Of a stretch of 64,000 nt of DNA, positions 33,603 through 48,683 are shown piece after piece (positions within the stretch are counted from its first letter, which is position 1; each line of letters opens with the position of its first letter). The translations under genes and the position numbers were made by a program. The DNA is from Umboniibacter marinipuniceus. GTDB lineage: Bacteria; Pseudomonadota; Gammaproteobacteria; Pseudomonadales; DSM-25080. Under the pieces are notes generated by a model. The model was not told the origin of the DNA. It saw nothing but the letters and a program-made list of their open reading frames with translations, and made no database searches. The stretch is taken from contig NZ_REFJ01000001.1 of assembly GCF_003688415.1 (NCBI RefSeq), forward strand, positions 354,645-418,644, written 5' to 3'.

Positions 33603-34709
33603 TTAACGGAGTTTGGTGGCTCTCAGAATAACAAACTTCGCATTACTTGCGATGGTTTCACAGTTACCAAAGAGTTTCTTTAATTTGCCGTGATAGTTAA
33701 GGTGCCTGTTACCAACAATAACCAGTTGACCGTGAACTTTCAAACAGCGAAGTGAAGCAGTGAACATGTTCCATGCTAGAAAATCACCGATTACTTGCCC
33801 CTGATGAAAAGGAGGGTTGTTGATCACCAGGTCGAAATGATTTGCTGGCGTACTACCAAAGGTGTCTACCCAGTTGAACTGCGCTACACGTGATGAGCCA
33901 ACTAAATGATCCCAGTTGTACCGTGCGCTATCGATGGCCATAGACGACTCGTCAAAGAAGTGAATGTCGCTCTCTGGAGCACGCAGCGCGCACTCAACGC
34001 CAATAATTCCGTTACCACAGCCTAAGTCTGCGATCTGGCCCCGTTCAGGGAGGTGCGGGAGATGTTGCAGTAAAAATCGAGTCCCGATATCAATACTTTT
34101 ACTGGAGAAAACATTGGCGTGGGATTGATATTCACGCTCCTGATAACTGAACGCACTCTGGGGTAGCGATGAAGCGCTTAGCGAACTATCCAGATGGCTG
34201 AAAAGTAATCGAGCTTTCTTTTTTGCTAGTGACGTCGTGGTAGGACCAATGATTTGCTCGAATAATTCGAGCGCACGTTTTGGCAAGTGCTTCACCATTG
34301 CAGCGCCGACGATGACTTGACCATCCGCAAGTTGAGCTCGGAGTTTACGCAGCTGATACGCCAATAGCTCCATGGACTTGGGTATCTTTATAATGATGGG
34401 GCCTTCGGTTTTAGGCAGTGGTGTGAGCGCATCGAGGAGCTGTGGACAATTCACATCATTTTTGCGGGCGTTGAGTTCTGTAGCCATAGCGCTCAATTTC
34501 GAATCTGAGATGCTAATCAGACCGCCGCTTCCTAGCGCGATTGCGCCGAAGCTATCATTTAGTATCAACGCCGGAGGCTGTTCAGGCGAGTGTTCTTCCA
34601 ACCAAGATAGCACGAGCTCATCCGCCGCATCCCACGCTCTGAGAGAGGCGTCATGATTAGTGGGGAACCGGGCTAACTGGAAGTCTTTGATTGGGGATTT
34701 GATGAACAT
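33603..34709 (-). CDS. rlmG: 23S rRNA (guanine-N2) methyltransferase RlmG
   Basis: A 368-residue RlmG/RsmC-type enzyme with a degenerate N-terminal methyltransferase-like domain and a C-terminal catalytic one. The SAM motif is IADLGCGNGIIGVECAL; the base-flipping motif is VINNPPFHQGQVIGDFLAWNMF; the tail VGNRHLNYHGKLKKLFGNCETIASNAKFVILRA is characteristic of RlmG, which methylates G1835 (E. coli numbering). GAGAG precedes the ATG. Neighbours share strand but not function. Confidence 0.92.
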   Translation of the reverse strand: MFIKSPIKDFQLARFPTNHDASLRAWDAADELVLSWLEEHSPEQPPALILNDSFGAIALGSGGLISISDSKLSAMATELNARKNDVNCPQLLDALTPLPKTEGPIIIKIPKSMELLAYQLRKLRAQLADGQVIVGAAMVKHLPKRALELFEQIIGPTTTSLAKKKARLLFSHLDSSLSASSLPQSAFSYQEREYQSHANVFSSKSIDIGTRFLLQHLPHLPERGQIADLGCGNGIIGVECALRAPESDIHFFDESSMAIDSARYNWDHLVGSSRVAQFNWVDTFGSTPANHFDLVINNPPFHQGQVIGDFLAWNMFTASLRCLKVHGQLVIVGNRHLNYHGKLKKLFGNCETIASNAKFVILRATKLR

Positions 34710-34766
34710 GCTAACTCTCGCTCTCAGGTTTAGCTGGCTATTGTACCTTCTTGGGCCGGCGAGTCA

Positions 34767-37571
34767 TCAATGTTGCTCAAATCCGCGAATAAACTCCACC
34801 AGTTCCTCTTTATACAGCGGCTCTGAATAGAAGAAACCCTGCCCGCAGTGAACCGCTTCGCGAATGAGTAGGTCTAGCTCAGCCTGAGTCTCTACTCCCT
34901 CTGCAATAACACTAACGTCCATCTGGATGGCAATAGCCATGATAGCTCTGATGATAGCAAGGTCTGTTGGATCATTAGCGGCGTGTTGAACAAAGCTTTT
35001 ATCGATTTTTAGGGCGCTAATAGGGAAACGTTTGAGGTAACTCAAGCTGGAATAGCCGGTGCCGAAGTCGTCGATGGCAATGCGAATCCCTGCTTGCCTT
35101 AGCTCTCGAATCTGCCGGGTCGTGGCTGGCGCATGATCAAGTAATACGGATTCAGTGATTTCAATTTGAATGTGCTCTGGGCTCACATTGAATTGCAAGC
35201 GCGCGTGATTTAAATAATCGGAGAAGCTATCAGCACGAAACTGCTGTGGTGAAGCGTTAATGGATAGGTAAGCAGGCGATTTCAGCAACGCAGACCAGTC
35301 TGCAAAGTCCTTCATCGCTTGGTTCATGACCCAGCTACCCAATTCGTCAATCATGCCCATATCTTCAGCAATGGGGATGAACTCTTCGGGAGAAATGATA
35401 CCGAATTCTGAACACTCCCAGCGGCAGAGCGCTTCAACGCCAATAATTGAAGACGAAGTAAAGTCAATCAGCGGCTGATAGGCAATACGTAGGGCGTTGT
35501 TGGAAATGTCGCGACGCAGAGCTGTCTCCAGCTTAAGTCTTCGTCGGTTGATATCCAGCATCTGGTCTTCGAAGAAGGCGTAGCGACACTGATCCATTTC
35601 TTTGGCAATATACATCGCAGTATCCGCGTTGCGTGTTAACTCGCTAAACTCAGTGCCGTTTTCTGGGAAGAGTGTAATACCTATACTCGCGCTAACGTAT
35701 ATTTTTCGCGCGCCAATCTCGAAGACTACTTCTAGAGCATTTACTAGTCTATCCGCAGTCTTAGCAGCTAGGTCCCGAGCGCTGTTAACGGGTAGTTGTT
35801 TGAGAATAACTGTGAACTCGTCACCACCGAGTCGACAGATTGCGTCATGCGGGCGCAGTGTTTGTTTCAGGCGTGCCGCGACCAATTGGAGGAGCTCGTC
35901 GCCAACTTCGTGCCCGTAGTTATCATTGATCATTTTAAAACGGTCTAGATCAATGAACATCAATGCGACCACGGTATTTTCTCTAATGGCCTCGGTCATC
36001 GCTCGTTCCAGTCGGTCTTTGAATAGGAAGCGATTGGGTAAACTGGTTAGCGAATCAAGGTATGCCATTTGTTCGAGGCGTTCCTCAGCATTCTTCTTTT
36101 GGGTAATGTCCTGACTCAGCATAATGACATGCTCAATGTCACCGCTTGGCGAGTTGACGCAATACATGATCAGCTCGCTGGGGAATATATCACCATTGGC
36201 AGTTTCTTGAGTAACCTCACCGGACCACTCGCCGCTTTTAATAGTTTGTCGCCAAATGTAGTTGAAGAAAGCGCTAGAGTGCTCGCTACTTAGCCAGTTT
36301 CTTGCGGAGTGACCAACAGTTTCTGTGCGATTCACTTGAAAAATCTCTAAGAATCTAGCGTTACAATCTTCCACAAGTTGTTGCCGATTTACAATCAAGA
36401 TCGCTTGGCTTGAGTGGCTAAAAACGCTCGAAGATAAACGGAGCTGAAGCTCTTGTTCAACCTGTTCGGAGATGTTGTAGGCAATACAGACGAAACCACT
36501 ATGATGGCGATCTTGATCAAATAACGAAGAGAGCGCTAGCCTCACTGGTATCGTCCTACCGGACTTGCTGATAAACGTAGACTGAGCGAAAACTGCCTGG
36601 GTGTTAGTCTGCGAAGGAGAATGCCTTCGTCGGAGTAGAAATTCAGTGATCGTCTGGTGGTTTTCTTGGTTTAAGGGTTCGAATACAAGTGGCGAATGGC
36701 TGCCAACCAGCTCCTCACGCCGGTACTCAAGGAGTTCTTCCGCAGCGCTATTCATCGTTCTAATAATGCCATCTAAATCCAAGGTGATAATGGCATATTC
36801 TGCACTGGCAATGATCGCCTGGTTTAGCTGCTGGCTTTCAACTAGGGCCACTCTTTCGTCACTGAGTTGATTAACGATTTCGTCAACGGCATCACTTATG
36901 GTAGTCAACTCGTCATGACCATCAAGACCAATTCTCAGCTCAAGATCACCCATCTTCCATCGGGTGAGAACGCTAAGCGCACGAGCTAGACGGCGAGTGA
37001 AGCGAGCATGGATAGCGATGAGAAGTATACTCGCCCCGAGAAGGCCGAATAGTAGGTTAAACAGGGATTGTTGTGTAAGTTGTGCGTAGGCACTATCTAA
37101 ACGCTCGTTCAGGTTGATTTGATAGCTAATTCTGAAGCAGTTTACTTCATAATTTAAGCAAACCGGTTGTGTGCTAATTAAATAGTCGCCCAAATGACGG
37201 TCAATATATTCAACATGTCCACGAGGTAGCAGCTCAACCAACTCAATATGAAGTAGGTCTGCTAGCGTTGATGTTGCTGTGAGCGTTGCACTGTATTGAT
37301 TTAGTTGGTCTTCCGCTAAGAGAGAAAATGACGCGTAATCATCCTCCAGTAAAACGTTATTAATTAGCTGAAGAGAAAAGGAGTCATCGAGTTGGTTAGC
37401 CGCTTCCTCCAAAAAACGCTTTGCCTGCTGAGTTTCGCGATACACCTCTTGGTGTATTGCTTGCTCGATCGACGCTTCGAGTTTGAGCCAGCCATAGATA
37501 TGATTTGCCACCGTCACTGCGGCGGTAATCACGAACAGGGAAATGGCCAGAAAACTGCGGAGCGACCTCAT
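34767..37571 (-). CDS. Membrane PAS-PAS-GGDEF-EAL cyclic-di-GMP protein
   Basis: 934 residues: TM1 about 8-27, periplasmic sensor region to 165, TM2 about 171-188, HAMP-like linker 190-245, PAS 250-370, PAS 380-490, GGDEF domain about 500-660 with intact LGGDEF (581-586), and EAL domain 690-930 with EAL (713-715), DDFGTGYSS (834-842), KIDKSF (855-860) and EGVET (891-895). Both catalytic sites look competent, so it may make or degrade c-di-GMP depending on the signal. No product-inhibition RxxD is obvious five residues before GGDEF. Its start overlaps the MscS gene stop (TAATG), placing it third in a three-gene unit. Confidence 0.93.
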   Translation of the reverse strand: MRSLRSFLAISLFVITAAVTVANHIYGWLKLEASIEQAIHQEVYRETQQAKRFLEEAANQLDDSFSLQLINNVLLEDDYASFSLLAEDQLNQYSATLTATSTLADLLHIELVELLPRGHVEYIDRHLGDYLISTQPVCLNYEVNCFRISYQINLNERLDSAYAQLTQQSLFNLLFGLLGASILLIAIHARFTRRLARALSVLTRWKMGDLELRIGLDGHDELTTISDAVDEIVNQLSDERVALVESQQLNQAIIASAEYAIITLDLDGIIRTMNSAAEELLEYRREELVGSHSPLVFEPLNQENHQTITEFLLRRRHSPSQTNTQAVFAQSTFISKSGRTIPVRLALSSLFDQDRHHSGFVCIAYNISEQVEQELQLRLSSSVFSHSSQAILIVNRQQLVEDCNARFLEIFQVNRTETVGHSARNWLSSEHSSAFFNYIWRQTIKSGEWSGEVTQETANGDIFPSELIMYCVNSPSGDIEHVIMLSQDITQKKNAEERLEQMAYLDSLTSLPNRFLFKDRLERAMTEAIRENTVVALMFIDLDRFKMINDNYGHEVGDELLQLVAARLKQTLRPHDAICRLGGDEFTVILKQLPVNSARDLAAKTADRLVNALEVVFEIGARKIYVSASIGITLFPENGTEFSELTRNADTAMYIAKEMDQCRYAFFEDQMLDINRRRLKLETALRRDISNNALRIAYQPLIDFTSSSIIGVEALCRWECSEFGIISPEEFIPIAEDMGMIDELGSWVMNQAMKDFADWSALLKSPAYLSINASPQQFRADSFSDYLNHARLQFNVSPEHIQIEITESVLLDHAPATTRQIRELRQAGIRIAIDDFGTGYSSLSYLKRFPISALKIDKSFVQHAANDPTDLAIIRAIMAIAIQMDVSVIAEGVETQAELDLLIREAVHCGQGFFYSEPLYKEELVEFIRGFEQH

Positions 37572-38536
37572 TAGCTGTTAGTTCCTTTGGCGCTGTTCTC
37601 TAGCGGGGGTTGGGCTGGCTCACTCTCTGGGTGCTGAAGGTGTCGATGCAGAATCGCAGCGGGTTTAATATCCTTCTTTCTGAAGGCTTCAATGACCCGT
37701 AGATTGACATCAGTTTCGAATAGCTTTTCGTAGCGGGTATCTAGCACGTAGGCTTTTAGGCGGAGTTTAATCGCGACATAATTATCGAGCACGGTTTGTT
37801 CTACCAAGACAACAATAGGTCGGGGTAGATGAATATAGCGACTACTCGCAGCCGCTTCTTCGATGATAGCGCGAGCCGTCGAGACATCTTGATCGTAGCC
37901 AATAAAAAAATCCATGCCCACATGCATGTCGAGTTCGCCAAAGTTTCCACTGACAGTGGTATCTGAGAGAAATTTATTATTGGGTATCGTGACAATATCA
38001 TCGTTGAGGGTTTTTAAACGAACTGAGCGGAGGCCGATACTAACAACGTCCCCGTATTGCTCATCGAAGCTTAGCCGATCACCGACCTGGAAGGGGCGAT
38101 CGATCATAATGATCAAGCCCGCAATGAACGACGCAACAAGATCTTTTAGCCCGAAACCTACTGCGACAGCGAGCGTGCCGCCAATCAGGGCCAGTACGCG
38201 CTCATCAACGCGGAGAGAGAGGTTGAACACCACGATGGTAGTGGTGATATAGACTGCAAATTGCAGGATAGTTTCTAGTTTATGCAGTAGCAAGCGACGT
38301 TGAACGAATTGCTCGCTAATTTGTTGAACAATATTGTGGATAAATCGCATGCCCACAACCACCGCTAGAACGAGCACTACAGAGCTGAGCACACCAGACC
38401 AACGAATAAGCTCACTTAGTTGCCCCAAGGCAATCTCGGGAGTGTCACTCAGCTCCTGCCCCATACTGCTTGAAGCTGAAACGATGGCGGTTAATACAAT
38501 AACTAAATTAGTTGAGACTTTGACGTAAGGACTCAT
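37571..38536 (-). CDS. MscS-family mechanosensitive channel
   Basis: About 321 residues: N-terminal helices near 10-30 and 48-70, another near 90-110, and the pore helix with the MscS Gly/Ala pattern LALIGGTLAVAVGFGLKDLVASFIAGLIIMIDRPFQVGDRL. The cytoplasmic beta domain follows (IGLRSVRLKTLNDDIVTIPNNKFLSD) and then the mixed alpha/beta end. A tension-gated channel for osmotic downshock or a small signalling conductance. ATG 38536 overlaps the stop of the upstream ATPase gene (ATGA); a longer start inside that gene is less likely. Fixed between an ATPase and a GGDEF-EAL gene. Confidence 0.9.
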   Translation of the reverse strand: MSPYVKVSTNLVIVLTAIVSASSSMGQELSDTPEIALGQLSELIRWSGVLSSVVLVLAVVVGMRFIHNIVQQISEQFVQRRLLLHKLETILQFAVYITTTIVVFNLSLRVDERVLALIGGTLAVAVGFGLKDLVASFIAGLIIMIDRPFQVGDRLSFDEQYGDVVSIGLRSVRLKTLNDDIVTIPNNKFLSDTTVSGNFGELDMHVGMDFFIGYDQDVSTARAIIEEAAASSRYIHLPRPIVVLVEQTVLDNYVAIKLRLKAYVLDTRYEKLFETDVNLRVIEAFRKKDIKPAAILHRHLQHPESEPAQPPLENSAKGTNS

Positions 38537-41004
38537 TTTTTTAGTTCCCCCATCACTAGGAGGTGTTTGCGCTGCATCAGCGAGCACACTTCTCGATACC
38601 ATAGCCAAGTTACCCGATAGAAGCCTTGATCCGTTCGCTCCACGACACCAAGATTGCCTAGCAGTCGAAGGGCGTCGATCACCTCCTCGGAGCTACATTT
38701 CGTGGCATTTTCAATGTCCGAGCGGATCGCTAGCTCAAGCTGTAATATGGAACGTAAGACCAAGTGTAGGCTTACAGAGAGGTTGTCAATGGTCCCGTCG
38801 CGAGAGATATCGAAAACTTGAACCAGATACGTAGAGGGTATTGATGGGTCAATAAAAAGTGATTGAGACCATAGTTGTAAGGCGATTCCTGGGTTTCCTC
38901 CGCAGTAATCGCTGAGAATACGCCGAAAGCGAATGGTTGCCAGCTCTTCGTCGCTGGGTTGAACCAGTTCGTCAAATTGCCGAGGTAAATTAAGGCGATC
39001 AAAACTGAGTTTTAGGGAAAGCGATGCATTAGTACTATCAATCAACTGTTGGATATCAGCTGAGGCCCAGATTGGCATGCGATCCTCAAGATCGAATTTA
39101 AAGCGTTCGCCACGAGCTCGTTGAATGAACCGCCAGGCAGCTGTGTCAATCGTTAGAATCCAAGATATTGAGTCCGACGATCGCCGGATCAAACGAATCA
39201 AGCGTTCGAATTCACCTAATCCTCCTATGGTTGGCGTCACCAGTCGATGCGCATTATCGATACAGATTACCTGCTCTTCGCCATCTCGTAAGTAGCTGAT
39301 GACTTCACTGGCACTCTGCGCATCGTTAAAGGATTGCGCTTGCATCGCTTCGAGAAGATGCTCGAAATCTCCTCGTGGACAGTCGACGATCCGAACGCTA
39401 ATGGATTCCTCGTGTTGTTGTGATGTGAGCTGCTTCGCCAAGCCACGAAGAAGAGCCGTTTTACCGGATGCTCGAGCGCCGTGAATCAGGCTAATTGTTG
39501 ACCTATTTAGATTTACCAGCGCAGTAATCCGCCGGCTAAGCGCTTCATCTACGGGTATGTGCTCGCCCGGGCCGCGCACGATTTCGTCTTTCTGTGATTG
39601 GCTGATGGGCAGTAGCTTGGGCTCTTCGCCTTCAGATTTGGCCACTTGCTTAGCTACCTCAGCCTGAAAAAGATAGGAGAGTAAGATTCGAAAGGTGGGG
39701 TTTTCTGCTAGGACAGCGAGTACAGACCTGCTCAGCCATTGCCAGCTTAGATAGATCGCCGCTACTGGCACAACATACCAAGCGCTAAATCCCGACTGGT
39801 GTCGTAAGCACCATTTTGCGATGCCAACCGATTGATAGTCGACTCGGGCTAAGGTTTCAAAAATGTGTTCGCGCCAGACAGCACAGTGGAATACTACGAG
39901 AGGAAGGGAAAGCGGTATTAACGCCAGTAAATACCACGTTTCTAGCGTCATCTTGGCAAGGTTTAAGTCATGAGCAGCGTCGTAGCCAAAGCCAATAAGC
40001 GCACCGATGGTGGCTGCGGTGAATATCACCTGCCAGCGTTTTCTCGCGTTGCGGTCTAGGGTATGGTTTCGACGGTACTCCGTTGCGCCAATGGTGTAAA
40101 TGAGCCGCGCTAGGAGGAAAGAGCCGACGGCCCAGAAGAGCGCGTCATGTAAAATACTGAAGTCCAGGCGGGGTAGTTCGCTTGAAATGATCTCCATAAC
40201 GGCCCAAAGCAGCACGAGAAACTCGAGTGGCCGTCGCATGGACAATAATAGCCAGCTCAGTGTGGAACGCCATCGAGAAACGCTATACTCGCGGTTAACT
40301 GCCGCGACTTGGAGCTGAGGAACGATACGGAAACGCCATACCACAAAGCCAATGAGCAGCAGAGTGAGCTGTCCAGCTAGCCGAGCTTCAATCATTGCCG
40401 ACAACTGCCAACCTGACTCAGCACTGTAGATAGTTTGCTGAATCTCGAAGCGATGAGCGTGCGTCGCAATGTCGACAATGGCAAATTCAGTTTTTGCTGA
40501 CAGTACGCCTAACTCACCGAAACCATAGACTTCTCTGCGCAGAGCGGGCGGCGCTTGGGCAAAAATACGACGCCGGAGGTCGATGAGGCCAGCAAGTAAG
40601 CGGCGATTGGCTCCGACATCACTGAGTGTTGTTTGCGGGGACTGAAGTAGTAGTTTGAATTGATTAATGGAGTGATTGAGGTCACTGTCAAATTGGCGGA
40701 ATTCACGTTCAGATGCTACCGAATTCTGGGCCAGTCGCTCGGTCCAATAATCTAGCGTACTCTCACTACGATCGGCGGGTATGCCTCGATTCAACGGCAC
40801 GGCTGCGTGAGACAGCTGCGTAGAAAGGCCCATATAAAGTAGGGCAAGCAAAAGCGCTAACCCTACGCGGAGGTATAGGGAGGAGCGCTCTAATTGGATT
40901 CGTTGAGTCATAGAAAATGGTGCCATAAATTGCAGTATAGACACGATGTGAGTTGTTGCTCTGTCAGTTACTTGATACCGCAAGGATATATCTTTTATCG
41001 CCAT
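38533..41004 (-). CDS. Polytopic membrane protein with C-terminal P-loop ATPase domain
   Basis: Up to 823 residues; family not recognised by name. Residues 45-67 look like a signal or first helix (LYLRVGLALLLALLYMGLS), 80-200 are probably periplasmic and helical, and about six further membrane segments lie between 208 and 435. The cytoplasmic part has Walker A GARASGKT (509-516), Walker B VICIDNAH (579-586) and CGGNPGIALQLW (701-712), a pattern of AAA/STAND NTPases, then a winged-helix-like tail. It overlaps mscS by 4 bases. Start uncertain: no good ribosome site; ATGs at 40926 and 40911 are alternatives and would place the signal segment nearer the N-terminus. Confidence 0.8.
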   Translation of the reverse strand: MAIKDISLRYQVTDRATTHIVSILQFMAPFSMTQRIQLERSSLYLRVGLALLLALLYMGLSTQLSHAAVPLNRGIPADRSESTLDYWTERLAQNSVASEREFRQFDSDLNHSINQFKLLLQSPQTTLSDVGANRRLLAGLIDLRRRIFAQAPPALRREVYGFGELGVLSAKTEFAIVDIATHAHRFEIQQTIYSAESGWQLSAMIEARLAGQLTLLLIGFVVWRFRIVPQLQVAAVNREYSVSRWRSTLSWLLLSMRRPLEFLVLLWAVMEIISSELPRLDFSILHDALFWAVGSFLLARLIYTIGATEYRRNHTLDRNARKRWQVIFTAATIGALIGFGYDAAHDLNLAKMTLETWYLLALIPLSLPLVVFHCAVWREHIFETLARVDYQSVGIAKWCLRHQSGFSAWYVVPVAAIYLSWQWLSRSVLAVLAENPTFRILLSYLFQAEVAKQVAKSEGEEPKLLPISQSQKDEIVRGPGEHIPVDEALSRRITALVNLNRSTISLIHGARASGKTALLRGLAKQLTSQQHEESISVRIVDCPRGDFEHLLEAMQAQSFNDAQSASEVISYLRDGEEQVICIDNAHRLVTPTIGGLGEFERLIRLIRRSSDSISWILTIDTAAWRFIQRARGERFKFDLEDRMPIWASADIQQLIDSTNASLSLKLSFDRLNLPRQFDELVQPSDEELATIRFRRILSDYCGGNPGIALQLWSQSLFIDPSIPSTYLVQVFDISRDGTIDNLSVSLHLVLRSILQLELAIRSDIENATKCSSEEVIDALRLLGNLGVVERTDQGFYRVTWLWYREVCSLMQRKHLLVMGELKK

Positions 41005-41084
41005 GGGCGATGATGCGTATTGGACTGGCAGTCACATATTCGGATCACGCGATAGCCTCGGAGAATAGGTTCAATCCCGCAGCC

Positions 41085-41438
41085 CTATAAAGTCGGCACG
41101 CCATAAAAAATTGATGTCGCCCAAAGAAATAAGAAGTTGGCCAAAATATGCACCGCTAAAGGGAGCGTTAGGGTATGGTGACGCTCATAGAGCCAACCAA
41201 ACAGCAACGATGCGGGAAACACCAGGAGAGCGGTGACCGAGTCTCGAAATAGCCAGTGTGTGAGTGAAAAAATAACGGAGGTGACCAAGTTGGCAAAGCT
41301 AATATTTAACTGGCGTCCCTTGTCCTTGGGTAATATTCGATAGAGTTGTTCCTGTAATATTCCTCTAAATAACAATTCCTCGACAACGGGCATCAGGATG
41401 ACAAAGATACCGATGTGGAGGGCTGAAAGCTCGGTCAT
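41085..41438 (-). CDS. Minimal CPBP-family glutamic intramembrane protease (possible CTERM-sorting enzyme)
   Basis: A 117-residue membrane protein that is little more than the CPBP/Rce1 catalytic core: motif 1 VVEELLFRG (EExxxR), motif 2 FSLTHWLF and motif 3 HILANFLFLW, on about four helices. Typical family members are 200-300 residues, so it is unusually short. It begins 5 bases after the stop of an M4 metallopeptidase gene, suggesting translational re-initiation. That peptidase ends in a Cys-containing CTERM-like tail, and related glutamic proteases (myxosortase/JDVT types) are thought to process such tails. A TTG at 41450 inside the peptidase gene is an alternative start. Confidence 0.82.
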   Translation of the reverse strand: MTELSALHIGIFVILMPVVEELLFRGILQEQLYRILPKDKGRQLNISFANLVTSVIFSLTHWLFRDSVTALLVFPASLLFGWLYERHHTLTLPLAVHILANFLFLWATSIFYGVPTL

Positions 41439-41443
41439 ATCTG

Positions 41444-43069
41444 CTAACAAAGTGGCGTTGAATTCAAGCGTCTACGCAGCCACCAGGCAAGGGCAGCTAA
41501 CGCCAACCAGCCTAGACCGTTATTAGATCCGGGTTCCGACAGACTGCAGCCACCGGAGCTTGACGACTCGCCACTATCCGTTGTAACCGAATTTTCATTT
41601 GATTCAGAACCGTTTAGCTCGGAATTGGTTAGCACCCCAACCGCCCTCCATGCCTTGGCCACCTGCTCCGCGGCGCCGGCGCTATAGCCCAGAGCCGCAT
41701 CTTCCATACCTAGTCTCGCGCCGAGGAAGGTCTCATCGGAGGTCCAGTAGTAACGAATCGCATCGTAGGAAATTTGCATCGCAAGATCCAAGCCAATCCC
41801 ATCAACGGTTTCGCCATTAAACGTTCCGCCGTTTGCAAGCAGATAAAACATCTTGTTCGCCACGCCGCTATTACGATGCACACCGCAGTAATCATTCTCG
41901 CAGATGTCTGGATTGGGACAGGCTGCAACACTGGTGTCAGTCCATCGATCACCTTGATATATTTCGGGTTGTCCATAATTAAGCGGATCCTTAATGTCGC
42001 GAATAGTGACCACACCTTCTCCCATGGTCCAGTTGTCCTCACCCGAATAGAACTCCACGGCAATCCCCATCCAGTCTGAAAAGGCTTCATTGAGCGCGCC
42101 TGACTCACGTTGATAGCGGAGATCGACCGCTCTATCGGAAACGGCATGGCCCCACTCATGGGCGGCGACATCTAGCGCTGCAACCAGGCTTATTGGCCAT
42201 ATTTTGCCGTTTCTATCTGCTTGGTTTCGGGGGGTGAAAACAATGGTTTCACCATTCCAAAATGCGTTAAAAAGCGACCCCCTTGGAATAATTTCGTCAC
42301 AGAACTGAGTAGGGCGTGCAGGGTAGGACACATTCACCAATGCCAACATCGTGGCGCCCTGATCATCAAATGAATTGATGCCAAGTACTTCGCGCCAGTA
42401 ATCGTAGACGATGCCCGAATGGTGGTTGGCGTCTGTAAGTTCTTCCTGGATTTCACTATCCCAAATGTTATTGCTATCAGCCGATTGCTCGCTGAGGGCT
42501 CGGCGAATCGGATGATAATAACCAAACGCTGCTTCAGCTAAAATCTTTGCACCGATTGGCTGATCGCCATCGGCATCAGTCTGGCGACTTAAATCTTGCA
42601 GGAGATAGTCAGTGGTGCCAACTTGAAGGGTGTTTAAGCTAACCCTATTTCCTAGTTGGCCAGTACCCGCGCCGGTGGTAGCCATAGCATTGCTTGGACC
42701 AAGATCGGTAATCCTCGGAGGGTCGAAAGTACATGCGTTCACTGCGTAAACAGCAACCGACGCTACCCCATCAGTGGCTCGTTCCAGGATGATGCTTGCA
42801 GGCGGATTGTCAGGGTTATTCCCGTTAGTCGCGGCGATGGCCTCGAAGAAATCGATGGCCGGGCGCTGTGCGAACTGATTTGCGAGCAGGACACAACAAG
42901 TCCCTTCTTCGGTATTGGCACATGCCCCGGCGTTGCTTGAAAGGCTGATCTCGTAGCTGTTACCCGCCGATAGGGTGAAAGAGTAATGTTTTATTTGGTT
43001 GGTATTGAGTGAATCACCAAAGGCCGAAACGGATAAAGCGGCGAGCACTAACACGCTGAAAAGTTTCAT
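41444..43069 (-). CDS. Secreted M4-family metallopeptidase with C-terminal sorting signal, no propeptide
   Basis: 541 residues. Signal peptide MKLFSVLVLAALSVSAFGDS, a beta-rich N-terminal region (about 25-115), then a thermolysin-like domain with zinc motif HEWGH (304-308), third ligand and GALNEAFSDWMG (Glu328), and catalytic-His region GVHRNSGVANKMFYLL (His398). The FTP/PepSY propeptide usual in M4 precursors is absent and is encoded by the overlapping upstream gene. The end shows a Ser/Asn-rich linker, GGCS (506-509), a hydrophobic stretch LGWLALAALAWWL and RRR (532-534): the tripartite form of Cys-containing CTERM sorting tails. Several Cys pairs suggest periplasmic oxidation. Confidence 0.92.
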   Translation of the reverse strand: MKLFSVLVLAALSVSAFGDSLNTNQIKHYSFTLSAGNSYEISLSSNAGACANTEEGTCCVLLANQFAQRPAIDFFEAIAATNGNNPDNPPASIILERATDGVASVAVYAVNACTFDPPRITDLGPSNAMATTGAGTGQLGNRVSLNTLQVGTTDYLLQDLSRQTDADGDQPIGAKILAEAAFGYYHPIRRALSEQSADSNNIWDSEIQEELTDANHHSGIVYDYWREVLGINSFDDQGATMLALVNVSYPARPTQFCDEIIPRGSLFNAFWNGETIVFTPRNQADRNGKIWPISLVAALDVAAHEWGHAVSDRAVDLRYQRESGALNEAFSDWMGIAVEFYSGEDNWTMGEGVVTIRDIKDPLNYGQPEIYQGDRWTDTSVAACPNPDICENDYCGVHRNSGVANKMFYLLANGGTFNGETVDGIGLDLAMQISYDAIRYYWTSDETFLGARLGMEDAALGYSAGAAEQVAKAWRAVGVLTNSELNGSESNENSVTTDSGESSSSGGCSLSEPGSNNGLGWLALAALAWWLRRRLNSTPLC

Positions 43070-43794
43070 TGGTAGCCCACCATCTTATCAACCGGTTGAT
43101 GTAAATGGATGCGGTTATCAACCTTCAGCAGATCGCCGGTGATGGCGTCGAATTCGAGTAGCACGCGCATATTGTTACCGCCAACGGTCACGTCGAATGT
43201 CTGGCGAAGGTTAGGCGCTTCATTTACCCATTCAGTTTGGCTGCGGGTTACCGTCATGAAACGGCTTGGGATATCGAGTTCAGCGGCCGCGTATGAAAGC
43301 AACTGCGGAGCCGATACTCGGCTCTGGTCGAGTTCCGCTTCGCTGCCCCACTGGCTGGCGAAGCCTGCTAAGCGAGGACTGATGGCGACACTTTGTCCAT
43401 TAATGCTGCCAAGCCGACCTGAACTATCGCGATGAATTCGGATATCGCTACCGCGCACTGGTATGCTCAGATGGGTGGTTGCGTACTGCTGGTGAATTCG
43501 GTCCTGGTGGTGAGTTGTCGAGAGTTCCGATAATTGGAATAGCGGTGTTTCTTGACTTAGTGAGGGGAACTGGCGGAGAAAATCTACCCCGCTAAAATCA
43601 GCTTGGTCGCTGAGCGCTCGAGGCTGAATGCCTCGGAGGTTAAATCGAGTAAGCTGGTATTGTTCCCGTACATCCAAGAAATCGAAGCGGTAAGCTTCGC
43701 TCAGTTGCTGCTGTATAGTTTTGAAATCGTTAGCTAGCCCACCTTGACTCATGGTGAGGATGAGGAGCATGACGCTGATGTGGAAGAACTTCAT
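43066..43794 (-). CDS. Stand-alone FTP/PepSY propeptide-like protein for the M4 peptidase
   Basis: 242 residues with a signal peptide (MKFFHISVMLLILTMSQGGLA). The middle matches the fungalysin/thermolysin propeptide pattern, HQQYATTHLSIPVRGSDI followed by SSGRLGSINGQSVAI, and the C-terminal part resembles PepSY (QTFDVTVGGNNMRVLLEFDAITGDLLKVDNRIH). No catalytic motif is present. It should fold and inhibit the M4 enzyme in trans. The start at 43794 follows GGAGAAG; the frame is open further upstream but without a signal peptide at its N-terminus. It overlaps the peptidase gene by 4 bases (ATGA). Confidence 0.88.
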   Translation of the reverse strand: MKFFHISVMLLILTMSQGGLANDFKTIQQQLSEAYRFDFLDVREQYQLTRFNLRGIQPRALSDQADFSGVDFLRQFPSLSQETPLFQLSELSTTHHQDRIHQQYATTHLSIPVRGSDIRIHRDSSGRLGSINGQSVAISPRLAGFASQWGSEAELDQSRVSAPQLLSYAAAELDIPSRFMTVTRSQTEWVNEAPNLRQTFDVTVGGNNMRVLLEFDAITGDLLKVDNRIHLHQPVDKMVGYQ

Positions 43795-43907
43795 GAAACG
43801 CTTCTCCAAGATAGCGGTTGTACCGCTTTTCGAGATAGACATTGTCTCGGCTAGAGACAACTGTGATAATCTCAGAAGTTGCACTAAGGGACAATAGGCT
43901 TAACGGT

Positions 43908-45581
43908 ATGTTAGATACTCAGTATTTCGATCAGTTACTCATAATTTTAGCAGCAGCTTTAGCCTCAGCAGTAATTTTTCGTCGGCTTTACGTGCCCAGC
44001 ATCGTAGCATATTTAGTTGCTGGCGCTGTAATTGGTCCCAGTGTAATGGGGTGGATAGACGAGCCGCAGCAATTTAGCTTTCTCGCCGAGTTCGGTGTGG
44101 TCTTTTTGCTGTTTGCCCTGGGTCTTGAGTTCTCAGTCCCTAAACTACTACGTCTAAAGGGCCCTGTGTTTGGCGTGGGCAGTGCGCAGGTACTACTCTG
44201 CATGCTCATTTTCGGGTCTGCAACCTATCTTTGGGGAGCCTCAGTAGAGTCCGCATTTGTTATTGCTGGGGCTCTGGCGCTGTCATCTACCGCTATCGTC
44301 ACGAAAGAGCTCTCCACCTTAGGTGAGGTCCATACCGACCACGGCCGACTCTCCATAGGTGTGTTGCTATTTCAAGATCTTGTCGCCGTTGTGCTATTGA
44401 TCGTTATACCGGTGCTTGGCGCGTCATCGGGAGCTGATTTAGGCACTGCGCTGGGTGTGGCACTGGTGAAAGGTTTGCTACTTGCGGCAATACTCTTGGC
44501 AGTGGGGCGCTGGGTACTACCCATTGTCTACCGTGAAGTCGCCAAGTCACAGTCTAGCGAAATCTTTGTGCTGAGTACCCTTGTTATTGTGATGGTTGCT
44601 GCTTGGGTTACCCATGCGGCGGGGCTGTCAATGGCTTTGGGCGCCTTCGTAACCGGCATGATGTTAGGCGAATGTCACTATAAACATCAGATCGAAAGCG
44701 ATATCCGTGGATTTCGAGATATTCTTCTAGGGTTATTCTTTGTAACCGTTGGGATGAATGTCGATGCCTCAATGTTGGTGGAGTATGCCCCGCGGATTAT
44801 CCTCTTTACGTTGGCGTTAGTGGCGTTGAAAGCGTTAATTATTGCCGTTTTAATCCGTCTGTTGGGCTATCCCGCCAAACCTGCTGCTCAGTCAGGGTTA
44901 ATTCTGTCCGAAGCGGGAGAGTTCGGCTTGGCGCTGCTTACTATTGCCGTGAGCTATGGGTTACTGCCTAATGAACAAGCATCATTCATCATGATTGTTG
45001 CCGTCCTAAGTATGGCTTTGAGCCCATTTCTTATTCGCTATGGACATCATGTTGTTGCGCGCTGGCTGAAGCCGAGCAAGCTAGATACCGATGACGGGAC
45101 CACAGCGAATGATCAAGAAAAGTTAGTGCTGGTGGGTGGTTATGGTCGAGTTGGCAAAGCGGTGGTTCGATTACTGGCGCTGCAGGAAGTTCCCTACTTG
45201 GTTATAGAACGAGACCCTGAAGTTGTTGCCGCGGCACGCAAGCAAGGTATTCGCATTACTTATGGTGATTGTACCGAGATGAGCATTCTGTCGACCTGTG
45301 GGATTGGCTCCGCTCGGCTAGCATTGCTTAGCTTCGATACGCTTGATCACGCTACGGAAGTGATTGAACACATTCGTAGTGCCGATGTGACTACGCCTCT
45401 CATGATTCGGCTCCCAGACTCGGCAGGGGTGGATGAATTGATAGCACTCGGTGCGAATCACCTCTTCCCTGAAATGGTGGAAGCGACCATCAGCGCGGTA
45501 ACTAATGTCTCAACACTGCTTTCGCTGGATGATACGCTCACACAGCAACTTGAAAATGAACTTCGCAGTGAAGGGTTATGA
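43908..45581 (+). CDS. CPA2-family monovalent cation:proton antiporter (Kef type)
   Basis: 557 residues: about 12-13 transmembrane helices (residues 8-390) of a Na+/H+ exchanger domain with GPSVMGW, FLLFALGLEFSVPKL, ALSSTAIVTKEL and LSIGVLLFQDLVAVVLL, then a cytoplasmic RCK/TrkA-N domain (VLVGGYGRVGKAVVRLLA ... GDCTEMSIL) that binds nucleotide. This is the layout of KefB/KefC/YbaL. It exchanges K+ or Na+ for H+. ATG 43908 is chosen over an upstream start because the preceding residues do not resemble the family N-terminus. It overlaps the aldo/keto reductase gene by 4 bases. Confidence 0.9.
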   Translation: MLDTQYFDQLLIILAAALASAVIFRRLYVPSIVAYLVAGAVIGPSVMGWIDEPQQFSFLAEFGVVFLLFALGLEFSVPKLLRLKGPVFGVGSAQVLLCMLIFGSATYLWGASVESAFVIAGALALSSTAIVTKELSTLGEVHTDHGRLSIGVLLFQDLVAVVLLIVIPVLGASSGADLGTALGVALVKGLLLAAILLAVGRWVLPIVYREVAKSQSSEIFVLSTLVIVMVAAWVTHAAGLSMALGAFVTGMMLGECHYKHQIESDIRGFRDILLGLFFVTVGMNVDASMLVEYAPRIILFTLALVALKALIIAVLIRLLGYPAKPAAQSGLILSEAGEFGLALLTIAVSYGLLPNEQASFIMIVAVLSMALSPFLIRYGHHVVARWLKPSKLDTDDGTTANDQEKLVLVGGYGRVGKAVVRLLALQEVPYLVIERDPEVVAAARKQGIRITYGDCTEMSILSTCGIGSARLALLSFDTLDHATEVIEHIRSADVTTPLMIRLPDSAGVDELIALGANHLFPEMVEATISAVTNVSTLLSLDDTLTQQLENELRSEGL

Positions 45582-46480
45582 CGGTGGCCTCTGATTCGCC
45601 CTTTCAGTTTGTTGGTAACGAAACCTGGGCTCAAGGCTATTGGCGGTTAGCAGATTGGCAATTTAGCGCACAGCAAACGTTGAGCTTTCTAAAGGCCCAT
45701 TTGGACCTTGGTGTATCGATCGGAGATCACGCCGATATCTACGGCGATTATCGTTGTGAGCAACTATTTGGTAACGCCTTGATCCTCGACCCATCGGTTC
45801 GCCACCAATTTCACGTTGTCACTAAATGCGATATCCAGCTGGTTTCGAGCTCAAACAGCGTGTCGATCAATCACTATGATACCAGCGCTAAGCACATCGT
45901 TAGCTCGGTTGAGCGCTCGCTGGAGCGGCTGCAGATTGAGCACATTGATACTCTGCTATTACATCGTCCTGACTTGCTCATGGATGTTGATGAGGTGATA
46001 GCCTGCTTCACTAGGCTCCGTGCAGAAGGTAAGGTAGGGGCGTTTGGTGTGTCCAATTTCAGCGCTAGCCAATTCGAGCTGCTAAACCATCGATTTGACG
46101 GTCAACTGGTCACCAACCAGGTGGAACTGAACCCACTTAACTTCGACGCCTTCGAGAATGGTATAACGGATCGGTTGCAGATGGCAGCGGTTAGGCCCAT
46201 GGCGTGGTCTTGTTTAGCTGGTGGCTCACTATTCAACGCGCAAACAGAGCAAGCGCAGCGTGTGGTAGGCTGTTTGCGCGAGCTCGCGATAAAGTATGAG
46301 ACTAGCCTTGAGGGTGTGGCTTATGCATGGGTAATACGCCATCCGAGTAAGCCGCTAGTCATTAATGGCAGCGGTAAGCTTAATCGACTAGCGAGCGCGA
46401 TGGAGCAGAGTAAGATTAGCCTTAGTCGCGAAGACTGGTATCGAGTCTGGGTGGCGTCTAAAGGGCACGGAGTGCCCTAG
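45578..46480 (+). CDS. Aldo/keto reductase (YdhF-like)
   Basis: A 300-residue TIM-barrel oxidoreductase. The catalytic tetrad can be placed as Asp/Tyr in GDHADIYGDYRCEQLFG, Lys in VVTKCDI and His in LLLHRPD; GVSNFSASQFELL and NQVELNPL follow the AKR pattern. It uses NADPH to reduce a carbonyl compound of unknown identity. The start overlaps the antiporter stop (ATGA). It ends 7 bases from the convergent SDR gene without a visible terminator. Confidence 0.88.
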   Translation: MTVASDSPFQFVGNETWAQGYWRLADWQFSAQQTLSFLKAHLDLGVSIGDHADIYGDYRCEQLFGNALILDPSVRHQFHVVTKCDIQLVSSSNSVSINHYDTSAKHIVSSVERSLERLQIEHIDTLLLHRPDLLMDVDEVIACFTRLRAEGKVGAFGVSNFSASQFELLNHRFDGQLVTNQVELNPLNFDAFENGITDRLQMAAVRPMAWSCLAGGSLFNAQTEQAQRVVGCLRELAIKYETSLEGVAYAWVIRHPSKPLVINGSGKLNRLASAMEQSKISLSREDWYRVWVASKGHGVP

Positions 46481-46487
46481 CTGGAAA

Positions 46488-47249
46488 TTACTGTGCGGTC
46501 CAGCCACCATCTACTTTGACGCATGATCCTGTCGTTAGCGATGAGGCGGACGATGCCAGGAAGGTCACGGCATTGGCAACCTCGCACACTTGCCCCACAC
46601 GACCGAGTGGGATCCGTTCCATCACAAACTCCTGAAAGTCGGGGTCCGCAAACATCGGCGCAGTCATTGGCGTTTCAATGAAGGTAGGTGCCACACTATT
46701 TACCCGAATATTGTGCTCCGCTAGCTCCACAGCCAATGCCTTAGTTAGCCCCTCTACCGCGTGCTTGGTGGCACAGTAAACGGAACGTTTCGGCGAGCCC
46801 ACGTGACCCATCTGCGAGCCGATATTGATAATAGAACCGCCCTGACCATTCGCTATCATTTCGCGAACTACCGAACGGGTGATGCGAAAGAGCGAACGCA
46901 CATTCATATCGAGCATTTGATCCAGTACCTCATCGTCAAGCTCGCTGATAAGCTGAGGCGTGTTGGTGCCTAAATTATTGACAAGGATATCGATGCCCTG
47001 GTACTCGCTGATTCGGGTTAATAGTTCGTCGCTGGTGGCGTCTAGGCACCAAGCAACAACCCGATCTCCATGCTCCAGGACTAACTGATCAAGGTCTGCT
47101 TCTGTTCTGGCAACAGCGATAACCGTGGCGCCTGCGGCGACGAGTGATTCTACGCAGGCTTTGCCAATGCCTTTCCCTGCACCGGTTACCAGTGCCGTTC
47201 GACCCGAAAGCAGGGAGTTACTATAGGGTGATTTTGAATTCGAAGTCAT
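46488..47249 (-). CDS. Short-chain dehydrogenase/reductase of the LacI-type regulon
   Basis: A 253-residue classical SDR: NAD(P) motif TALVTGAGKGIGKACV, VNNLGTN, IINIGSQMGHVG, catalytic YCATKHAVEGLTKALAVELAEHNIRVNSVAPTF, C-terminal TTGSCVKVDGGW. It probably oxidises a hydroxyl group of the catabolised compound. It is divergent from the HisD-like gene, and its start codon lies just inside a TGnnTTCGAAnnCA palindrome, so its expression should follow the LacI regulator. Substrate not deducible. Confidence 0.9.
   Translation of the reverse strand: MTSNSKSPYSNSLLSGRTALVTGAGKGIGKACVESLVAAGATVIAVARTEADLDQLVLEHGDRVVAWCLDATSDELLTRISEYQGIDILVNNLGTNTPQLISELDDEVLDQMLDMNVRSLFRITRSVVREMIANGQGGSIINIGSQMGHVGSPKRSVYCATKHAVEGLTKALAVELAEHNIRVNSVAPTFIETPMTAPMFADPDFQEFVMERIPLGRVGQVCEVANAVTFLASSASSLTTGSCVKVDGGWTAQ
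47235..47248. promoter_or_regulatory. Predicted LacI-family operator overlapping the SDR start
   Basis: TGAATTCGAAGTCA fits the palindrome TGnnTTCGAAnnCA, with the central CG expected of LacI-family operators. It covers the first codons of the SDR gene, 90 bases from a second copy, a spacing that could allow looping. Confidence 0.65.
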
Positions 47250-47324
47250 TATGGCGGCTCGCTCTAGAATATGTCTAATAGGTGAGATTATCTTTTACCT
47301 GATTAGAAATTAAAAGACAAATAT

Positions 47325-47338
47325 TGCATTCGAAGTCA
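47325..47338. promoter_or_regulatory. Predicted LacI-family operator between SDR and HisD-like genes
   Basis: TGCATTCGAAGTCA, same palindrome; the flanks (TTGCATTCGAAGTCAAAAAT) are nearly identical to the reverse complement of the site at 57171. It lies 56 bases upstream of the HisD-like ATG. Confidence 0.75.
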
Positions 47339-47393
47339 AAAATAACTAACCTGCCTGTATTGAACAATAAAATTCGTACTTATAGGTGCTCCA

Positions 47394-48683
47394 ATGATTA
47401 GAAAATTAAAAGACGGTATTGACGTAGAAGTCGCTAAAAATAATGATCGCATGGTCCGCGAAACGGTAGAAGGTGTGCTCGCCGATATCGAGCAGAATGG
47501 CGATGCGGCAGTGCATGCTTACGCCGAAAAATTTGATGGCTGGCCAAGCGATAAGCCGTTCCGTCTAACCGCCGAAGAAATTAAAGCGGCTTACGATGAG
47601 CTGCCAGAGCAAGTGATCGAAGATATCCGCTTCGCGCAGACTCAAGTGCGCAACTTCGCTCAAATTCAGCGCAACTCAATGAAGGACGTTGAAGAAGAGA
47701 CATTGCCGGGCGTTATTCTTGGTCACAAGAATATTCCGATGAACAGCGTGGGTTGCTACATTCCTGGTGGTAAGTACCCGCTAGTTGCGTCCGCACATAT
47801 GAGTGTTGTGACCGCAAAGGTTGCTGGGGTTAAGCGAGTTATTGCCTGTGCGCCGCCCTTCAATGGCGTACCGCACCCAGCTATTGTGGTCGCAATGGAC
47901 ATGGCTGGTGCTGACGAAATTTATTGTTTCGGGGGTATTCAAGCTGTTGGCGCAATGGCGATTGGCACCGAAACTATCGCACCGGTTGATATGTTAGTGG
48001 GTCCAGGTAACGCCTTCGTTGCTGAGGCAAAGCGTCAGTTGTTTGGCCGAGTGGGAATTGATCTATTTGCCGGCCCAACGGAGACCTTAGTCATTGCCGA
48101 CGAAACTGTCGACGGTGAATTGTGTGCAACGGATCTACTTGGTCAGGCAGAGCATGGGCCTAATTCACCAGCTGTGTTGCTAACTAATTCGGAGCAGTTA
48201 GCGAATGATACTTTAGCGGCTATTGAGCGCCAGTTGAAAGTATTGCCTACCGCTGATATTGCGGGTAAGGCTTGGGCAGACTACGGTCAGATCGTTCTGT
48301 GTGACACCTACGAAGAAATGCTGCAAGTTGCCGACGAACTTGCCTATGAGCACGTTCAGGTGATGACTGAAGATCCTGACTATTTCCTCGATAACATGAC
48401 GAACTTCGGAGCAATGTTCGTTGGACCCGAGACCAACGTCTCATATGGTGATAAGGTAGTGGGCACGAACCACACCCTACCAACCAACAAAGCAGCGCGT
48501 TATACTGGTGGATTATGGGTTGGTAAATTCATCAAGACCTGTACCTATCAGCGCCTTACGGAAGAAGCTTCGCACCACATTGGTGAATACTGTTCACGTC
48601 TTTGTGCAGTAGAGGGTTTCGCGGGGCACAAGGCGCAGGCCGATATCCGCGTGGAACGATATGGAAAAAAGCTCGGTAAATAA
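47394..48683 (+). CDS. HisD-family dehydrogenase, HpsN-like (not histidine biosynthesis)
   Basis: 429 residues of the histidinol dehydrogenase fold: [71 protein letters not shown], and the metal/catalytic regions [10 protein letters not shown] and [17 protein letters not shown]. The pattern [19 protein letters not shown] is that of the catabolic paralogues typified by sulfopropanediol 3-dehydrogenase HpsN, which oxidise a primary alcohol in two NAD-dependent steps to a carboxylate. No other his genes are near. No sulfolactate-degrading genes (suyAB, comC) are in the window, so sulfopropanediol itself is doubtful as substrate. Confidence 0.88.

Follow-up and report, generated by a model that had tools for sequence, protein, structure and literature searches.

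A stretch of 64,000 nucleotides of the Umboniibacter marinipuniceus genome (contig NZ_REFJ01000001.1, positions 354,645–418,644 of the forward strand; hereafter, the window) was analyzed with attention to a putative protease sorting locus. Three intact coupled genes were found on the minus strand at positions 43794–41085, and they encode, in the order of reading, an FTP/PepSY propeptide protein, an M4 peptidase and a short CPBP protease. The features of the locus, in window coordinates, are as follows.

43066–43794, minus strand: standalone FTP/PepSY propeptide protein, 242 residues (ATG at 43794, TGA at 43066), with its own signal peptide; sub-threshold Pfam match, hhalign match and structural model matches.
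41444–43069, minus strand: thermolysin-type M4 metallopeptidase, 541 residues (ATG at 43069, TAG at 41444), with its own signal peptide and a C-terminal sorting tail, without a cis propeptide.
41468–41557, minus strand: MYXO/JDVT-type C-terminal sorting tail (GGC motif, hydrophobic helix, RRR); TIGR03901 above the cut-off.
41085–41438, minus strand: MrtJ-type glutamic intramembrane protease, 117 residues (ATG at 41438, TAG at 41085); NF033192 above the cut-off.
40983–43823, no strand: segment that contains the three genes and no others; the alignment with the congener G002 shows 97 bp in its place.

The propeptide and M4 reading frames overlap through ATGA and the ATG of the CPBP gene lies 5 bases past the M4 stop codon, so both junctions are as described in the initial annotation of this DNA. 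An alternative CPBP start, the upstream TTG at 41450, would give a protein of 121 residues. Sec-type signal peptides were recognized by eye at the start of both secreted proteins (MKFFHISVMLLILTMSQGGLA, MKLFSVLVLAALSVSAFG); together with the reading frames, this confirmed the separate propeptide with its own signal peptide that had been claimed for positions 43066–43794.

The peptidase was attributed to family M4 with Pfam scores of 67.6 bits for M4 and 123.4 bits for M4_C. The HExxH motif, the third ligand E and the catalytic H are all present, and the catalytic and zinc residues H304, E305, H308, E328 and H398 were invariant in an alignment of 40 sequences. The structural model of the protein matched thermolysin (Foldseek, 6.3e-26). 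The cis-propeptide profile A2 gave no match to the M4 open reading frame (ORF) at E values up to 0.01, in agreement with the claim that this enzyme has a signal peptide but no propeptide of its own. Between the signal peptide and the catalytic domain there are about 100 residues with several cysteines (window positions 42676–43009), a region that the initial annotation did not mention. These N-terminal residues scored 14.1 bits against Pfam PPC, below the cut-off of 25.9, and the predicted local distance difference test (pLDDT) value was under 50 across most of them.

The C-terminal tail of the peptidase (SSGGCSLSEPGSNNGLGWLALAALAWWLRRRLNSTPLC) has its helix at residues 518–534 of the model. 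A score of 22.4 bits for the whole protein and 27.5 bits for the tail alone was obtained with the MYXO-CTERM model TIGR03901 (cut-off 20), which bears out the predicted Cys-containing CTERM tail with GGCS, a hydrophobic stretch and RRR. This was the only MYXO-CTERM match listed in the genome (E 3.2e-5, search at E up to 10). A pattern of GC, hydrophobic stretch and basic end, designed with knowledge of this tail, was found in 1 of the 164 window ORFs of at least 60 residues.

The short 117-residue CPBP protease of the initial annotation could be identified as MrtJ, since it matched NF033192, the model for MrtJ of the JDVT-CTERM system, with 92.5 bits (cut-off 75) over positions 3–97 of the 98-position model. 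The scores for the other myxosortases were all far under the cut-offs (MrtP, 69 against 250 bits; MrtC, 54 against 195; MrtX, 35.3 against 180). MrtJ is the sole PF02517 match (E up to 0.001) in the genome, which has a size of 2.69 Mb and is 99% complete. The residues of the EExxxR, FxxxH and HxxxN signature, namely E24, E25, R29, F61, H65, H101 and N105 (numbering of the 121-residue form), were identical in 57 of 57 sequences, including the window; the locus L106, whose ORF is without the EE motif, was left out of this alignment.

The presence of a sole PF02517 match and a sole MYXO-CTERM match in the genome is in line with the dedicated one-enzyme, one-substrate sorting pair that had been proposed. 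The cysteine-tailed target with its CPBP protease thus stands, but such a pair is not new and is already known as MrtJ/JDVT-CTERM. In the rhombosortase/GlyGly-CTERM system, as is proposed for the window, a C-terminal tail is cut by an intramembrane protease and export is of type II; the protease there is a rhomboid serine protease, whereas that of the window is a CPBP glutamic protease. The primary paper on MrtJ is reportedly Haft 2024. A conserved pair of MrtJ and one JDVT-CTERM protein was already described in beta- and gammaproteobacteria (PMC11980579). The window resembles this two-gene system (NF033192, NF033191) in having MrtJ above the cut-off, a single adjacent target, a tail of GGC, helix and basic residues, and one pair in its genome. 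It differs in that the target is a thermolysin-type M4 peptidase whose tail passes the MYXO model and not the JDVT model, in the shortened N-terminus of MrtJ and in the third gene, which encodes the propeptide. With the MYXO-CTERM system and its proteases MrtX, MrtC and MrtP, the window shares a tail passing TIGR03901 and a related protease core; the window protease is far under the cut-offs for these cognate enzymes. In addition, the window has one target, whereas Myxococcota typically have dozens (PMC11980579).

MrtJ was found to be common, exceeding the cut-off in 53 of 369 sampled genomes of the class and in 5 of 56 relatives, with the window's genome counted in both. The 57 MrtJ neighborhoods analyzed (L023–L026, L072–L124) comprised 53 stretches from the class search, in which the window's genome was left out and one genome is represented twice, and 4 from the relatives; several of these stretches end at contig ends. 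A JDVT-like tail was found in the fetched stretch in 22 neighborhoods, 20 of which had built the profile, and was not found in the fetched stretch in the remaining 35, some of which are cut at contig ends. The targets of many MrtJ genes may therefore lie at a distance. The partner proteins included VWA, subtilisin-like, reprolysin-like and other HExxH proteins, and six partner tails from elsewhere scored 33.6 to 54.2 bits against JDVT-CTERM. No relatives of the window M4 peptidase or propeptide were revealed by phmmer (E up to 1) among ORFs of at least 80 residues in the 57 stretches. The one exception near a MrtJ gene is a 77-residue M4 C-terminus in the congener G001, which is under that ORF length.

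Comparison with two congeners, G001 and G002, gave information on the history of the locus. At the same locus, G001 carries the C-terminus of an M4 peptidase with a GGGC tail, overlapping MrtJ (75.0 bits, cut-off 75); a single adjacent target with a CTERM tail is present both in the window and at this site of G001. The G001 pair adjoins homologues of five neighboring window proteins with the order kept. The G002 genome aligns to both flanks (71% over 34003–40982 and 76% over 43824–47993), and 97 bp stand there for the 2,841 bp of the window that hold exactly the three genes. Since G001 carries the pair at the same locus, loss in G002 appears likelier than gain, and these alignments suggest that the three-gene block is old and was probably lost as a unit. 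A point against this is that the G001 draft gave no propeptide relative to go with this M4. Insertion of a mobile element was considered and rejected: edge repeats were not found, and the GC content was 0.51 in the segment and 0.49 and 0.50 in the flanks. According to the initial annotation, a tailed M4 peptidase in a genome without the CPBP gene would speak against a dedicated pair; within the genus, none was found, as MrtJ and the tailed peptidase occur together (in the window's genome, G000, and in G001) or neither was found (G002).

The tail of G001 scored 25.6 bits against JDVT-CTERM, just under the cut-off of 27, and 14.9 bits against MYXO-CTERM, below the cut-off of 20. Our own JDVT tail profile did not report it at E up to 1, although the NCBIfam model gives the former score. 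The orthologous tails of the two congeners are thus split between the models, with the window in MYXO-CTERM and G001 nearer to JDVT-CTERM, and this fits a gradation of the MYXO and JDVT tail classes into each other.

M4 precursors, such as those of thermolysin, LasB and ProA, contain FTP and PepSY in cis. The window has the same domains in the same order, but they are divided between two proteins that both carry a signal peptide. As FTP fell below the Pfam cut-off and PepSY was not seen by Pfam, the FTP/PepSY identity of the propeptide protein rests on profile and structure comparison. As a single sequence, the protein was aligned with 11 cis propeptides by hhalign with an E value of 7.7e-5 and a probability of 61.7 (residues 99–233). 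Sequence matches in the PDB did not rise above chance level (best E 0.14, antibody light chains). The AlphaFold2 model (pLDDT 68.9 overall, mean 78 for residues 91–230) best matched the propeptide chains 3nqz_A and 3nqy_A of vibriolysin MCP-02 (Foldseek 3.0e-6 and 5.2e-6; Z 10.6 each), followed by the fungalysin propeptide 4k90_B (Z 9.8; following row 7.3), which places the protein in this fold through a match that is not fully independent, the alignment used for the model being that of cis propeptides. Residue 231 of the model is aligned with residue 204 of 3nqz_A, where the match to that autoprocessed chain stops, and the protein ends at residue 242, which suggests that the gene ends near the self-cut point of cis precursors. 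In the autoprocessed complex of vibriolysin MCP-02 (3NQY, 3NQZ), the propeptide and enzyme folds are also present as two separate chains in one complex; according to the entry titles, those chains arise from one precursor by self-cleavage, whereas those of the window are encoded by two genes.

A second split pair was found in the same genome. The second M4 protein (G000:C5; L222 2038–3777) showed M4_C and FHA domains (122.6 and 49.2 bits); a signal peptide, a proline-rich stalk and a transmembrane helix were recognized in it by eye, and no match to a cis propeptide was found. Directly ahead of it lies a standalone FTP/PepSY gene of 245 residues, which scored 31.7 bits with the cis-only profile; G001 and G002 share this arrangement, with scores of 36.0 and 30.0 bits. 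The same arrangement was found in G430, a genome from another family (27.3 bits with profile A1; Pfam FTP 23.6 bits, over the cut-off of 21), where the FHA domain of the M4 protein was sub-threshold (19.5 bits, cut-off 20.7). Note that the genes for FTP/PepSY and the M4 protein with the transmembrane helix and FHA domain lie beside a MotA/ExbB-like gene (L222:1298–5580 of G000:C5; L061 and L063; L269:161–8003), and G430 (L269) adds an FHA gene, two PP2C phosphatases and a Ser/Thr kinase (by eye). This looks like a phospho-signaling cluster with a membrane-anchored protease.

To estimate how unusual such splitting is, propeptide matches were collected from genome samples drawn from larger groups, with up to 8 candidates scored per genome. 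In the sample of the order (390 genomes), 64 matches were listed, 55 of which were in frames of at least 507 residues, as expected of cis precursors, these long frames not being checked individually for the M4 domain. Five matches were intact standalone propeptide genes, two in the window's genome and one each in G001, G002 and G430, and four rows were pieces of two broken loci, in G435 (examined) and G491 (from the table rows). The sample of the class (369 genomes) gave 49 matches, including 7 in frames shorter than 300 residues, two of them in the window's genome. Three of the short frames are lipoprotein-like (L253, L254, L255) and stand ahead of M4 peptidases that retain the cis propeptide; L256 had no M4 gene in the fetched 4 kb, and L257 is cut by a contig end. 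Inspection by eye showed lipobox-like starts in the standalone FTP/PepSY genes L253:5465–6064, L254:5499–6080 and L255:5279–5896, and the M4 peptidases directly following them are large, with a propeptide retained in cis and a Gly-rich hydrophobic tail at the C-terminus.

A scan for named relatives of the M4 peptidase with the protein alone confirmed none, and the scan with alignment A3 covered the best 80 of 586 loci. Among the 84 M4 ORFs of these loci, 80 had an FTP/PepSY match in cis and none had a standalone propeptide gene directly upstream. The four ORFs without a cis match were those of L159, L194 and L207, with at least 238 residues before the M4 match, and one ORF of L203 that is cut at the locus edge. 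The extra matches in L161 and L203 represent further M4 genes, and that in L201 is a further downstream matching ORF, cut at the locus end. Our literature searches, which define the scope of this statement, surfaced no paper on M4 propeptides that are naturally encoded apart.

We consider it probable that the locus is a sorting pair of the MrtJ/JDVT-CTERM type in which one thermolysin-type peptidase, produced as a split zymogen, is the only target. Several observations weigh against this assignment. The search for the same gene trio, suggested in the initial annotation, revealed all three genes together in a single genome. In G001, MrtJ and the end of the M4 gene are present, the contig breaks off within the latter, and the draft of that genome (87% complete) yielded no propeptide relative to accompany this M4. 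The score of the propeptide protein was 16.3 bits with Pfam FTP (cut-off 21), no PepSY was detected, and the divergent sequence gave 12.8 bits with the cis-only profile; the partial dependence of the fold match on cis propeptides also belongs here. The comparison of the tail with CTERM models succeeded for MYXO-CTERM and not for JDVT-CTERM, as the window tail was unlisted for NF033191 (cut-off 27 bits) at E up to 10 and scored just 13.1 bits with the JDVT tail profile made in this work. Finally, 23 residues precede EExxxR in the window MrtJ, whereas the counts for 56 relatives (first possible codon taken as the start) range upward from 32, with a median of 61.5, and reach at least 48 in 54 of them. 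A simple hydropathy scan showed a hydrophobic stretch preceding the EExxxR helix (or its position) in 5 of 5 relatives and not in the window MrtJ.

The proposed working of the split zymogen and its sorting pair starts from what can be read in the sequences, namely the gene content, the families, the intact catalytic residues, the one-to-one relation, the type II secretin GspD of this genome (532.9 bits, cut-off 351.35), the absence of the block in G002 and the second split pair. The propeptide and the peptidase would be exported separately by Sec. In the periplasm, the FTP/PepSY protein would fold the peptidase in trans and hold it inactive in a non-covalent complex, which would resemble the autoprocessed propeptide–enzyme complex of vibriolysin, with no propeptide–enzyme bond to be cut. 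Meanwhile, the tail helix would retain the peptidase in the inner membrane, and MrtJ would cleave at or beside the tail cysteine, probably once it is lipidated. Delivery to the cell surface would then fall to the type II secretion system, and the enzyme would become active there once the propeptide is lost. The route from the tail to the surface is adopted by analogy from the MrtX model of M. xanthus (PMC11980579).

Alternatively, MrtJ could cut the tail without any lipid being involved, simply detaching the peptidase from the inner membrane and leaving the enzyme free outside the cell. We regard this as unlikely while giving it some weight, because lipidation in the M. xanthus model is only a hypothesis of the 2025 paper, according to which the acyltransferase for myxosortase-type tails has yet to be identified (PMC11980579). 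However, the GGC cysteine is retained in both genus members despite the differing rest of the tail, and cleavage of TraA by MrtX requires its conserved cysteines (PMC11980579). It is also conceivable, though rather improbable, that the FTP/PepSY protein acts chiefly as an inhibitor or timer dedicated to the peptidase, which would fold unaided. FTP/PepSY propeptides also inhibit, and in G246, G110 and G199 a standalone FTP/PepSY gene with a lipobox-like start (by eye) stands ahead of an M4 peptidase retaining its cis propeptide, so a standalone copy can do something beyond replacing the cis one. Nevertheless, neither the peptidase of the window pair nor that of the FHA pair showed another propeptide, and the window gene ends near the end of the autoprocessed vibriolysin propeptide; folding and inhibition may both be combined in this protein. 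The shortened N-terminus of MrtJ could indicate a decayed remnant, with the tail now being a membrane anchor only, but this is very doubtful given the nearly full-length match to the MrtJ model, the retention of all seven signature residues and the lack of any other PF02517 match in the genome. Breakage of one ancestral prepropeptidase gene by frameshift or sequencing error, which the initial annotation had named as a possible refutation, was rejected as hardly credible: the parts are arranged as in a normal M4 precursor and broken M4 genes exist in the order (G435; G491 by the table rows only), but each window frame has its own start and signal peptide, the break separates the propeptide from the enzyme, four genomes show this split again at a second locus, the three genes are cleanly absent from G002, and G435 (L270:2101–3644) is broken differently, into several frames with breaks that fall within both the propeptide and the catalytic domain.

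On the basis of comparative genomics, we lean slightly toward a broader reading, according to which M4 peptidases exist in this lineage as natural two-gene zymogens. Each enzyme would have a dedicated FTP/PepSY partner, secreted separately, to fold and restrain it in trans, and the enzymes would go to two destinations, as a surface enzyme sorted by the minimal MrtJ and as a membrane-anchored FHA peptidase. The sorting half was already known and has here an unusual target and a deviating tail; the propeptide as a gene of its own and the shortened protease set the locus apart as a variant. If this reading is true, splitting would let the cell time activation via the supply of the partner rather than by self-cleavage, and a naturally split M4 zymogen would let folding and inhibition by the propeptide be studied with the propeptide as a separate protein. 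The 117-residue protease, having a single enzyme substrate that can be assayed, would offer a compact system in which to study the cut and any lipid step.

Promoter and terminator scans yielded about as many hits as shuffled sequence. Next to the locus, at window positions 37571–41004, a gene for an AAA-domain protein is followed by an MscS-type channel gene (Pfam), and both are retained beside this site in G001 and G002.

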